Shown in pieces: positions 4,394 through 52,039 of a stretch of 64,000 nucleotides of DNA; position 1 is the first letter of the stretch, and every line of letters begins with the position of its first letter. Below the pieces are notes generated by a model, which saw nothing but the letters and a program-made list of their open reading frames with translations, was not told the origin of the DNA and ran no database searches. The DNA comes from Streptomyces zinciresistens K42. GTDB taxonomy: Bacteria; Actinomycetota; Actinomycetes; Streptomycetales; Streptomycetaceae. The stretch lies in assembly GCF_000225525.1 (NCBI RefSeq), contig NZ_AGBF01000006.1, positions 1-64,000 on the forward strand. The letters run 5' to 3'. The position numbers and the translations under genes are program-made.

Positions 4394-4414
4394 GTAGAGG
4401 CTCGTCCTTTCCTT

Positions 4415-4560
4415 CCCTCTCGCCTACCGGGTTAGCTGACGGGTTCGGAGCAGGAAGGTCTCCTACGGACCCCCTCGCCGTGGCGCGGGCGTCCGATTCA
4501 CCCCAGGGACACAGATGGGTCCCCGGCTCCCCTGGCTCGCGCCGTACGGGGACTCGGCGA
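4415..4560 (-). promoter_or_regulatory. c-di-AMP riboswitch (ydaO-yuaA type) in the M23 peptidase leader
   Basis: Read on the minus strand, the leader contains GGGGTGAATCGGACGC (4489-4504). It also contains the conserved 3' block that includes CAGCTAACCCGGTAGGCG (about 4421-4448), ending 27 nt before the start codon. These are the signature conserved blocks of actinobacterial ydaO-yuaA riboswitches. A further hairpin, GGCTGTCCG (4562-4570) with CGGACAGCC (4598-4606), lies 5' of the core. In this class c-di-AMP binding usually turns expression off. The ends are approximate because I judged them by motif, not by a covariance model. Confidence 0.85.
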
Positions 4561-4714
4561 TGGCTGTCCGGTGCCGCGGGCGCGGCGCACTGCCTGACGG
4601 ACAGCCCGGAAGACGCTAAACGGGACGTCTTTCCCTCCCCAAACCGATCGGGCTTTTTGTAGCGCATGCCACAGGGCAGACAGGTAACCTCTCCCCCAAT
4701 TCGGGCATAAGGGA

Positions 4715-44188: not shown

Positions 44189-45094
44189 CTAGGCAGCCGC
44201 AGGGACCCAGTCCGGCAGGGCCTCGGTCCGCTCCAGCCACGGGCCCGGCACCGCACCGGCCTTGCCGGAGCCGATCACTCCGCCCACGATCGCGCACGTC
44301 GTGTCCACGTCGCCGCCGACCTGGGCGGTGGTCCAGAAAGCCTGTTCGTAGTCGCCGAGGGCCCGCGCGGCGGACCACAGCGCGAAGGGCACGGTGTCGT
44401 GGGCCGTCGTACGCCGCCCACAGCCCAGTACGGCCGCCACGGTGGCCGCGTCGGCGTAGTCGAGCATGTCCCGGGCGCGGCGCAGCCCCGCGCCGACCGC
44501 GCTCTTCGGGACCAGGGCGATGACGTCGCCGAGCAGGGCCTCCGGGCGGGGCGGGCCGCTCGGTGCGGCGGCGAGAGCGGCGGCCGCGGCGACGGCCATG
44601 GCCCCGACGACGGCCTCCCGGTGCTGATGCGTGGGGTAGGCCGAGATCTCGGCCTGGTGGGTGGCCTGCTCGGGATCGTCCGCGTACCAGGCACCCAGGG
44701 GGGCGATACGCATCGCGGCGCCGTTGCCCCAGGACCCCTGGCCGTTGAAGAGCGCGGCCGACAGCTCACGCCAGTCGCCGCCCTCGCGGACCAGGCGCAG
44801 CAGGCGGTTGACCGCAGGGCCGTAGCCCCGGTCGAAGTCGTGGCGCTCCGCGAAGGAACGGGCCAGGGCGTCCTGGTCGACGCGGTGGTGCGCGGTCAGC
44901 ACGGTGACGACGGAGCAGGCCATCTCGGTGTCGTCCGTCCACTGCCAGGGACCGGCCGGCAGTTCGCGGCGCTTCAGCAGCGGATGGTTCGCCGGCACGA
45001 AGAACTGCGAGCCCAGCGCGTCCCCCACCGCGAGTCCGCGCAGGCTGGCGAGGGCGCGGTCCAGGCGCCCTGCGGGGGAGGGGTCAGCGGTCAT
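44189..45094 (-). CDS. ADP-ribosylglycohydrolase family protein
   Basis: 301 residues. DraG-type enzymes hydrolyse ADP-ribose from protein side chains or related substrates using two Mg ions. The metal-binding motifs are present: GLAVGDALG near residue 25, WTDDTEMA at ~53, GNGAAMRIAPLGA at ~125, and GGDVDTTCAIVGGVIG at ~270. It starts 12 bp after the stop of the upstream phosphatase gene, so the two form an operon. There is no signal peptide; the protein is cytoplasmic. The true substrate is not predictable from sequence. Confidence 0.92.
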   Translation of the reverse strand: MTADPSPAGRLDRALASLRGLAVGDALGSQFFVPANHPLLKRRELPAGPWQWTDDTEMACSVVTVLTAHHRVDQDALARSFAERHDFDRGYGPAVNRLLRLVREGGDWRELSAALFNGQGSWGNGAAMRIAPLGAWYADDPEQATHQAEISAYPTHQHREAVVGAMAVAAAAALAAAPSGPPRPEALLGDVIALVPKSAVGAGLRRARDMLDYADAATVAAVLGCGRRTTAHDTVPFALWSAARALGDYEQAFWTTAQVGGDVDTTCAIVGGVIGSGKAGAVPGPWLERTEALPDWVPAAA

Positions 45095-45106: not shown

Positions 45107-45766
45107 CTATCCGGTGATTCCGTACGGTTCCGGCTCACGCCAGCGTTCGAACGGCCGGTCAAGCTCGTATCGGCCGTCGCCGCGGAGAACGAGCATGCGC
45201 ATCTCCGCGTTCCCCGGATTGGACAGGGATTCGAATTCGGCGACCGTCCAGTGGAACCACCGCATGCAGAAGAGCCGCATCGCCAGGCCGTGGGTCACGA
45301 GCAGCACGTTCGGGGGGTGGTCGGGTGCCTCGAAGCTGCGGAACAGGCTCTCCAGGAAGCCGCCGACGCGGTCGTACACGTCCGCGCCGGACTCGCCCTG
45401 GGCGAAGCGGTAGAAGAAGTGGCCGTAGGCGTCCCGGTAGGACTTCTGGAGGCGCACGTCGTCGCGGTCCTGCCAGTTCCCCCAATCCTGCTCACGCAGC
45501 CTGGGCTCCTCGCGCACCCGCATGAGCCCGGGGTCCAGGTGGAAGGCCCGCAGTGTCTCGTGCGTGCGGCGGTACGGGGAGACGTACACGCTCACGCGCT
45601 CGCGGCCGAACACCTCGCGCAAGCGCTTTCCCGTCTCCTCGGCCTGCCTACAGCCCCGCTCCGTCAGGGCCAGCGCGTGGTCGGGCTCACGCTCGTAGAC
45701 GGTGTCATCAACATTGCCCGTTGACTCCCCGTGCCGGACAAGGACGATGCGCCGTGGTCGTGCCAT
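45107..45766 (-). CDS. Histidine phosphatase family protein
   Basis: 219 residues. The phosphohistidine motif is LVRHGEST at residues ~9-16. Supporting Arg and His residues are in YVSPYRRTHETLR and in LLVTHGLAMRLFCMRWFHW. It belongs to the phosphoglycerate-mutase-like superfamily, whose substrates range from sugar phosphates to nucleotides. The product cannot be named. It is upstream of and probably co-transcribed with the ADP-ribosylglycohydrolase. A group II intron ends only a few bases before its ATG, so its natural ribosome site may be in the 5' exon. Confidence 0.92.
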   Translation of the reverse strand: MARPRRIVLVRHGESTGNVDDTVYEREPDHALALTERGCRQAEETGKRLREVFGRERVSVYVSPYRRTHETLRAFHLDPGLMRVREEPRLREQDWGNWQDRDDVRLQKSYRDAYGHFFYRFAQGESGADVYDRVGGFLESLFRSFEAPDHPPNVLLVTHGLAMRLFCMRWFHWTVAEFESLSNPGNAEMRMLVLRGDGRYELDRPFERWREPEPYGITG

Positions 45767-47467
45767 TGGTAGTCAGGGGCGCGGTGCTCTTTCGAGCCCG
45801 TTTCCCCATTCCCCTTTCAATCCGTGCGTGCGGTTTTCCCGCACACGGCTTACCGATGATCTTCTTGGCATGGTTACGCAGTCTTCGGGTAGCGGATGGT
45901 GCCACGCAGGCAGTACAGGCCGTGCCCCACGAACCACTCTTCCGTCCACGCATTTTGTTGCCCACCACGCAAGTTACGCCCCCGCTTCTCAAGCATCAAT
46001 CGGCGAAGTCGCCACACTACATGGTTGTCAACTTGGCGGAACTTCCTGGCGGCATTCCCGGTTCGGAAGTAGTTTCCCCAGCCGCGCAGGATCGGATTCA
46101 GCTCCGCGATCACATCGCGAATATCCATTCCAGACCGGCGGCGGTCGGTCCGCACACGGACCTTGTCCCGGAGTCGCTTCATCGCCGCTTGCGAGGGCCG
46201 GCGATGCAGGTAGAAGCGGACTGTGTCGTACTTCTCCCACGACCGGCCCGAAAAGCGGGCTCTGAAGTGGCAGCCGAGGAAGTCGAGTCCTCCCCGGCCC
46301 TCTCTGAGCCTGAATCCACCGAAGAAGTTACGGATATCGAACTCCACGACAAAGCAGCTGCCCTTAGCGAAGCCGACACGAAGCCGTTCCATCGCCTGCG
46401 TCGCCGACCGCTTCGGCCGGAAACCGTACGAACACGGGAGAAACCCCGCCTCGAAAACAGGCTCCAGCACAATCTTCGCCGCCTGCTGAGCAACCCTGTC
46501 GCGCACCGTCGGAATACCCAGCGGCCGTTTGCCACCCTGCGGTTTCGGCATATCTACACGCCTGGCCGGCGCAGGACGATACATACCTGAGCGGAGATCA
46601 CGCTGAAGTTCGCCGAGCATCCGGCGGACCCCATACTCGTTCTCCACAAACGCCAAGGTGACCCGATCCACCCCGGCACTTCCCCTATTGGCCCGGACAC
46701 GTTCCCACGCCTCCCACAGCACGTCACCTCTGTGGATACGGTCATACAGGGCGTGAAAACACCGCTCCGGAGGCTGCTTGGCCGCAGCCCATAGTCCGCG
46801 TTGGAGTTTTCGCACTTTCGAGACGGACGCATGCCCGTCCACTACGACGGTGCAGTGCCCGTCGGGGTGGTTGGACCGGGTCTCCCCGGTCATGCCCTCG
46901 CGCTTACCCCCGCCACGGACGTGATCAAAGTGCGGGCCCTTCCCTCCCGGCGCGTTATGTTGCACGCCGATCAGCGGTACTACGCCCCGCTCGGACTCCC
47001 GCTGCCCTCCGGACGACTTCACCATCGGCTTATACGTCCGGTCTCGTGCCCGACGTCAGGCGTGGTCAGACGGGGCTCTCCTGTTCCGGCCCAGACTATG
47101 CACACGTGCCGCCCTCCGTACCCCGGGAGAACCCCGGAGGCTGCCCCCGGAACAGGGCCCCCAGGACATGGCCTTCGCCGCGGCATGACGGGCTCGGCTT
47201 CTCCGCTGTCGGTTTGACGAGGCTGCAAGGTTCGCTTGATGCTACGGCCCGCGTGCTTGCTCCCTCCAAAGAGGCATTCGACGCCCCGCTCAGCCCGCCG
47301 CGTCTCCACGACGAACCGGGGCCTGCTACCGGGCACTCCGGTGTCCACCCGGACGGGACTTCCACCCGCGAGCCTGGACCAGCCTTCAGGACGCAACATG
47401 CCAAAACCCTAGATCGGGTGACGGCTGATCGAGCACTCGTACGGGCTCCATACGGCGTAGGTCACAC
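45767..47467 (-). mobile_element. Group II intron with a defective maturase gene
   Basis: On the minus strand the 3' part contains a domain V hairpin at 45819-45851: AAGCCGTGTGCGGG, an AAAA loop, then CCGCACGCACGGATT, including the AGC triad. A domain VI-like stem and GCCCCTGACTACC follow next to the phosphatase ATG. The 5' end fits GUGYG at 47467 (GTGTGACCTACGCCG) or alternatively 47478 (GTGCGGG). The intron lies entirely between the DUF4937 gene and the phosphatase gene on the same strand. The exact ends are uncertain by about 10 nt. Confidence 0.85.
45874..47025 (-). pseudogene. ltrA: Group II intron reverse transcriptase/maturase with internal deletion
   Basis: The frame encodes 383 residues where intact relatives have roughly 550. 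N-terminal RT blocks 0-2 are present (RANRGSAGVDRVTLAFVENE; GGKRPLGIPTVRDRVAQQAA; FVVEFDIRNFFG). The sequence then jumps in frame to GGFRLREGRGGLDFLGCHFR, which normally follows the catalytic core. The YADD active site and RT blocks 4-6 are therefore missing. Domain X and the C-terminal maturase region are intact (LNPILRGWGNYFRTGNA). Reverse transcription is impossible, but RNA-binding or splicing help might survive. The start is uncertain; ATG 47025 is the first. Confidence 0.88.
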
Positions 47468-47538
47468 ATTTCCCGCACCATCGGTCACACGGAGACGTGG
47501 TGGACGCGGGTCCGGGCAGCGGGCAGGCGGCGGCCGGC

Positions 47539-51912: not shown

Positions 51913-52039
51913 GCCGCCTCCCTCTACGGGCGAAAACGCCCTGAAGTGCCGCGATGTTCCCCGTGGCACGTGGTTCTGTCTGGTGTCGCGGGCACCGCTG
52001 GATCGCCACCCGCAACAGGTCTTGTGTGGCCGCCGCACG

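Follow-up and report, generated by a model that had tools for sequence, protein, structure and literature searches.

The group II intron on the minus strand of the window (the whole stretch of 64,000 nucleotides analysed here, from Streptomyces zinciresistens K42) is probably an immobile, ribozyme-intact copy from an endonuclease-less lineage that inserts directly behind leaderless start codons, a reading that takes in the steps proposed further below. A domain I segment at 47371-47237 (-) matches Rfam family RF02003 (group-II-D1D4-4) at 83.7 bits against a gathering score of 49, and together with the conservation of D5 and D6 this upholds the assignment to group II made in a preliminary description of the same DNA. 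The 5' end had been put there at 47478. That position is ruled out by intron-free Streptomyces genomes, in which the first 82 nt (47478-47397) are present as host DNA and run straight into the phosphatase gene (88-95% in the 21 fetched loci).

These 21 intron-free phosphatase loci, fetched from a larger number of genomes matching the flank, all read TANNNT, then 6 or 7 nt, a single ATG and the gene; the intron is therefore placed at the start codon, within a leaderless-type promoter. The phosphatase gene itself looks leaderless, judging from all 21 relatives. The intron had earlier been placed between a ribosome site and the start codon; the intron-free sites rule this out, since a -10 box lies 6 nt before the ATG and inspection of the sequence brings no ribosome site into view before the host ATG at the window site. 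It was correctly noticed that the intron end adjoins the phosphatase ATG, but the distance of about 5 nt was wrong: the window has an ATG at each intron junction where intron-free sites have one. The phosphatase and ADP-ribosylglycohydrolase gene pair was also read correctly, as the Pfam matches below attest. We infer the intron boundaries from the lines of evidence named with them, the T and G of the start codon occurring at both junctions, and put the 5' splice site behind the RTG because of the EBS1 pairing and the homology with the GTGCG start of sister introns.

47406-47411 (-): host -10 box TAGGGT, 6 nt before the start codon (sequence reading, intron-free relatives)
47397-47400 (-): 5' exon end, C plus the host ATG, the IBS1 target (intron-free sites, EBS1 pairing)
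45764-47396 (-): group II intron, 1633 nt (intron-free sites, alignment of relatives, GTGCG start of sister introns, EBS1 pairing)
47019-47399 (-): leader frame ORF1, 126 aa, opening at the host ATG and crossing domains I-III (ORF reading, arrangement in relatives)
47184-47187 (-): EBS1, the CAUG of a domain I hairpin loop (covariation with the base before the start codon)
45874-47025 (-): shortened intron protein, 383 aa, with RT blocks to DIRNFF and then domain X (Pfam, tblastn)
46308-46321 (-): in-frame deletion junction, about 120 codons gone (tblastn segments stop and resume)
45818-45851 (-): domain V (sequence, consensus fold)
45768-45814 (-): domain VI, with a candidate branch A at 45770 suggested by the bulge (consensus fold)
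45764-45766 (-): intron-borne terminal ATG, its A being the intron's; the annotated-looking phosphatase start in the unspliced order
45107-45766 (-): histidine phosphatase superfamily protein, the host gene (PF00300)
44189-45094 (-): ADP-ribosylglycohydrolase, the next gene, 12 nt after the phosphatase gene (PF03747)

Protein and ribozyme of the window copy

The loss of the catalytic RT core in frame, leaving no YADD, and the retention of domain X had both been read from the letters, and profile matches and alignment agree with that reading. The window protein matches only positions 2-89 of the 205-position RVT_1 profile, and positions 1-69 of 80 in GIIM (domain X). In tblastn it aligns in one frame with residues 1-235 and 356-499 of the intact 499-aa protein of a relative (L003); residues 236-355 of the latter, the palm with PQG and YADD, are missing from it, with no frameshift. 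It scores 232 bits against an NCBIfam cut-off of 300, the N-terminal RT blocks and domain X being kept and the palm gone. Deletion of the RT palm means that this copy should therefore no longer be able to move, and the loss of retromobility proposed at the outset is well supported by the absence of PQG and YADD. A search for a full-length relative elsewhere in the genome had been suggested as well; a DNA search of the host's own assembly (524 contigs) returned this copy only and thus revealed no full-length helper. Other genomes do contain intact relatives.

The RNA tells of much less damage. In the D5-D6 part (45871-45764), 59 columns are invariant in 22 relatives and the window copy differs at 0 of them, in keeping with the intact domain V first reported; in D1-D3 it deviates at 2 of 160 such columns, where 25 copies with intact proteins deviate at 0-11, mostly 0-2. 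Across the family, 43 of 103 pairs in D1-D3 stay paired despite changes on both sides. The consensus fold has D5 and D6 helices that show compensatory changes, and a bulged A in domain VI. The window copy thus looks immobile, with its RNA apparently undecayed, and continued splicing is plausible. At the boundaries given, the intron starts UUGCG and ends AUG, which departs from the GUGYG/AY rule; some relatives start GUGCG, and an alternative cut inside the start codon would make the window copy end AU. Because D1-D6 and the protein are clear, this mismatch was not taken to exclude the element from group II.

Among the 40 copies with both ends, the protein is intact in 27 and damaged in 13. We considered whether the in-frame deletion points to selection for the maturase and rejected this, as a clean internal deletion that keeps the frame is seen in only 2 of the 13 damaged copies (the window and L186); the others are frameshifted, truncated, stopped or interrupted. 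Help in splicing from the shortened maturase is possible, though it is not indicated by selection. L186 (in G289) is the copy at the uvrB start codon and has lost residues 175-250 of the L003 protein in frame, with YADD kept. A different kind of interruption is seen in Kitasatospora humi (L036), where an insert of about 415 nt breaks the intron protein after residue 47, and in L116/L194 an insert of about 140 nt lies inside domain VI, with the ATG end beyond the insert.

Insertion sites and target reading in the family

Relatives were collected from named genomes, from genus and class samples and from fetched regions, and their junctions were placed, independent of the flanks, with profiles covering the first 110 nt and the D5-D6 end. 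This first set left out 8 duplicates, 3 loci with short flanks and 10 partial profile matches (nine sister introns and L060). Every one of the 49 distinct 5' junctions ends in NTG (ATG 37, GTG 11 and CTG 1, the last at L079); TANNNT ends 6-8 nt before the NTG in 47 of them, and C stands at -1 in 45. Information content over these 49 sites stands out only at -1, in the start codon and in the -10 region, and there is no shared site of 20-35 bp. At the 3' junctions ATG is found in 49 of 51 distinct cases and GTG in 2. As a control, other RTG triplets in the 5' flanks were scored for such a -10 box, which 21 of 2734 possess; the control script dropped the 3 short-flank rows and required TG before the intron, and the 49-site scan was run without that condition. 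The leaderless share of ORFs is put at about 20% for S. lividans (PMC6742748) and at nearly a quarter for mycobacteria (PMC4633059) in the available parts of both papers, and against a leaderless background of 25% drawn from them the 47 of 49 sites with a -10 box give p = 3e-26 if sites are independent; they are not fully so, as orthologous targets recur.

A later test set was taken from a plasmid collection and 297 genomes from the genus of G469, leaving out 8 loci already in the first set, 2 partial and 1 short. All 18 new junctions end in RTG, all 18 have a -10 box, and the 17 readable 3' ends are all ATG. For the pooled sites, the -10 box lies 6-8 nt before the start codon in 65 of 67, the exceptions being L064 and L078. 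Within the same genus, G795 carries a gene identical to that of Mycolicibacterium austroafricanum L040. The most distant member, L060, comes from a Planctomycetota MAG, with a protein 57% identical, and has TAGCAT, 8 nt and ATG before the intron; it is uncounted here, and its contig could be misbinned. The intron protein is present four times in genome G968, five times in G928 and four times in G853, at different start codons and in some cases with equal scores, which looks like recent spread. Searches of viral contigs yielded no relative of the intron, and those of phages only streptococcal sister-like matches below 60% identity.

Frames downstream of the introns are at least 60 aa long or run off the contig in 44 of 51 cases; 4 are shorter and closed, and 3 contigs end too soon. 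In the later set 4 of 17 are closed below 60 aa, so not each site is a normal gene start. Pfam domains were found in 18 of the 20 downstream frames scanned, among them TatD, P450, SelO, AP endonuclease, FtsK and the exonuclease VII small subunit. Target genes are leaderless-like also in relatives without the intron, as seen at three of them: intron-free uvrB has TACGGT (by eye) and then a single ATG in 15 of 15; ftsK has a leaderless-like single start in all 17 aligned, with 3 unaligned; and a PH-domain gene has the -10 box in 23 of 24, with a single start codon (GTG 20, ATG 4). The gene at L028 was left out of these tallies, its intron-free matches being paralogues of doubtful orthology. An intron with an intact protein lies at the ftsK start codon of Mycobacterium celatum (L048:2580-4640), where the gene is leaderless-like in relatives. 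The ftsK gene is essential in mycobacteria, and if it is so in this host the intron must be compatible with its expression.

Sister introns, whose proteins are about 48-54% identical to that of L003, do not share this placement: at none of 7 placed junctions was there an RTG or a -10 box (14 loci were examined, and the 5' end was placeable in 7). They start with the canonical GTGCGYCCAG (GTGCGCCCAG or GTGCGTCCAG).

How the start codon could be read is suggested by covariation. Among the intron columns, the one that carries most information on the host base at -1 is the final base of the CAUG loop (mutual information 0.53; next 0.28). Where the host has C at -1, the intron has G in 53 rows, A in 3 and T in 1; where the host has G, the intron has U in 7 of 7, from three lineages (L041/L042, L069 and four copies of G968). 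This covariation with the base before the start codon identifies EBS1 as CAUG, pairing with C-R-U-G. Full 4-bp pairing between EBS1 and target occurs in 56 of 66 rows (of the 67, L199 is too short), whereas 10000 permutations averaged 43 and never exceeded 51; 10 of the 66 lack it. At the R of the start codon covariation is non-significant, CAC introns lying in 3 GTG and 2 ATG hosts (p = 0.07), and the two CAC introns in ATG hosts have altered loops. L064 and L078, the sites without TANNNT, are also the two introns with EBS1 CAUA. Neither EBS2 nor EBS3 was identified in these introns. The CAUG loop appears to resemble the CAU anticodon of initiator tRNA.

Expression of the maturase and the terminal ATG

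In most copies of the family a leader frame of about 125 codons opens at the captured start codon and continues through domains I-III. In 27 copies with intact proteins its stop falls at position +4 of the maturase ATG in 20 and just before that ATG in 3, and the frame is broken or misfits in 4 (L003, L035, L060 and L117). The later set has the leader stop on the maturase start in 15 of 16, and in the window the frame and the overlap are both intact, the TGA of the leader overlapping the maturase start (ATGGTGA). Given this junction of leader stop and maturase start, the maturase is probably expressed from the promoter and start codon of the host.

The encoded peptide is almost free of constraint. 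Changes per codon position in the leader frame are 0.229, 0.230 and 0.244, and pN/pS is 0.85. Keeping the frame open appears to be another matter: 3 of 32 possible stop-creating changes are found in the leader frame, compared with 22 of 73 in the two alternative frames (Fisher p = 0.025), which lends moderate support to an open leader, and the frame is intact in 23 of 27 copies with intact proteins as against 5 of 13 with damaged ones (p = 0.008). These comparisons suggest that the leader's sequence matters little and its openness matters, with translation presumably coupled from the host start codon to the maturase. Lengths in threes were tried as proof of a translated leader and abandoned, as the control failed: lengths fall mostly into a single class mod 3 behind the protein too (22 of 27, with 21 of 27 before it).

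The ATG that ends the intron was also considered as the host's own codon, and hosts with GTG starts rule this out. Among the 12 of them with both ends readable, 10 have ATG at the 3' junction, and L040 has GTG at its 5' junction, as does its nearest intron-free relative L201, with ATG at the 3' junction. The comparison of host and intron codons assigns the A to the intron, and we assign the whole terminal ATG to it because of the EBS1 argument. The only introns ending in GTG, L052 and L057, both have EBS1 CAC, and L116, also with CAC, ends in ATG; this gives a hint (p = 0.002, with only three CAC introns) that the terminal RUG may pair with EBS1. Since an ATG is present in the unspliced as well as the spliced order, splicing is not needed for supplying a start codon. 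It would be needed to restore a leaderless message.

Proposed route of insertion and comparison with known systems

We infer transcription starts, splicing and translation at the intron sites from sequence, and on that footing propose the following route. Specificity would come from the 4-bp EBS1 pairing combined with access to promoter DNA opened by RNA polymerase. Transcription is predicted to start on the R of the start codon, which would put the insertion point about 3 nt downstream, at the edge of the melted region and on the non-template strand. In the open complex this strand is unpaired over the stretch that begins at the -10 box and ends just beyond the transcription start. An RNP that lacks an endonuclease depends on accessible single-stranded DNA, and we therefore favour insertion at the open complex. 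After insertion, the host promoter and start codon would yield the intron RNA, and coupled translation of the leader would yield the maturase. Splicing would restore the leaderless message, with joined exons ATG-GCACGACC, and the terminal ATG would preserve a start codon when the intron stays unspliced. With transcription starting at the start codon, the 5' exon in the RNA would be only 3 nt, which is unusually short for splicing and counts against this explanation, the best we have. In its most specific form, in which the anticodon-like CAU loop reads start codons, entry is at the open complex, promoter and start codon are captured and the terminal RUG may replace the 5' exon, we hold the proposal only tentatively, at somewhat under even chances.

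The same target could be reached with RNA polymerase uninvolved, if the RNP read double-stranded DNA across the -10 box and start codon or made use of replication forks. The polymerase's part is a proposal for the start-codon introns, and endonuclease-less introns do prime at replication forks according to the accessible text of PMC4424553. However, apart from the -10 box, conservation is confined to the start codon and the -1 base, which is little for recognition of the homing type, and the fixed distance to the predicted transcription start fits a melted region; we regard this route as a real but lesser possibility. For the window copy by itself, it may be that we are looking at a dead remnant, with the phosphatase translated from the intron's ATG off a long unspliced leader or from an internal promoter. 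The protein is broken, no intact helper was found in the assembly, and the ATG is there without splicing. Yet the ribozyme, which deviates at 2 of 160 invariant columns in D1-D3 and at none of 59 in D5-D6, is within the range of copies with intact proteins, and no Shine-Dalgarno-like sequence was seen close before the terminal ATG, where D6 and CUACCA stand, and on these grounds we think a dead remnant possible, at rather less than even chances.

Insertion might instead be wide, with only those copies persisting that fall at leaderless start codons, where they are harmless and able to express their protein. The leader frame would indeed favour start-codon sites in this way, but a position exact to the nucleotide in 67 of 67 junctions and the covariation of EBS1 need a choice of site at insertion, and sister introns from the same hosts lie elsewhere, so that such survivorship seems very improbable. 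Hardly credible at all is a homing intron of the ordinary sort, brought by chance to a place between a ribosome site and an ATG: it does adjoin the ATG, but the 82 nt once taken for its beginning are host DNA, the site is leaderless-like and the placement is common to the whole family.

Three target specificities of bacterial group II introns, namely homing sites, terminators and attC, are given in the accessible text of a 2015 review (PMC4424553). Measured against that text, leaderless start codons would be a fourth type, and among the matches listed from the open-access literature, in the portions available, there was no report of group II introns targeting start codons or leaderless genes. 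Class C (IIC) introns are similar in having no endonuclease domain, a short 4-nt exon pairing and an insertion tied to a transcription signal, and the proteins of known structure most similar to the intron protein are IIC RTs (7uim, 2.6e-61; 6ar1, 2.1e-60). In contrast to class C, the start-codon introns target a -10 box (65 of 67) and start codon in place of a terminator or attC, and they have EBS1 CAUG, end in ATG and couple a leader frame to the maturase. Endonuclease-less varieties, including g1 with Rh.js.I1 and Ca.ac.I1, appear in the available text of Toro and Martinez-Abarca 2013 (PMC3552965), whose main text has neither the word 'target' nor 'start codon'. Variety g1 shares the actinobacterial hosts, and the intron protein of a Rhodococcus jostii RHA1 plasmid, presumably that of Rh.js.I1, is 47.8% identical to that of L003; unlike the start-codon introns, sister introns of this kind, with their GTGCGCCCAG or GTGCGTCCAG beginnings, lie behind start codons in 0 of 7 cases. 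RmInt1 and Ll.LtrB, which home, are alike in having a ribozyme with D5/D6 and an intron-encoded RT/maturase; they recognise a homing site of 20-35 bp, whereas the start-codon introns share about 4 nt and the -10 box only. The F3 introns of Thermosynechococcus also lie near start codons, between two start codons of another intron's ORF, but as described in the accessible text of PMC2882425 they use one fixed homing site in F1 introns and not diverse leaderless start codons.

Start-codon targeting links the targeting of retroelements with transcription initiation and with a mode of translation common in actinobacteria. It predicts a landing rule, a -10 box, 6-8 nt and C-R-U-G, that might be re-aimed through four loop bases, and the introns could then serve as naturally occurring markers for leaderless promoters (uvrB, ftsK, xseB and others). 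Start-codon targeting also offers a testable case of a mobile element with no expression signals of its own in view, taking promoter and start codon from its target.

Some further observations concern the window itself. The roughly 80 bp upstream of the phosphatase start (47397-47478) are unusually conserved among Streptomyces (76-95%), more than a bare promoter needs, and may hold a regulator site. Farther away, a c-di-AMP riboswitch (RF00379, 81.3 bits) lies at 4406-4569 (-), and an nrdJ RNA motif (RF03034, 70.6 bits) at 51935-52020 (-), at the start of a long frame, 52038-49018.
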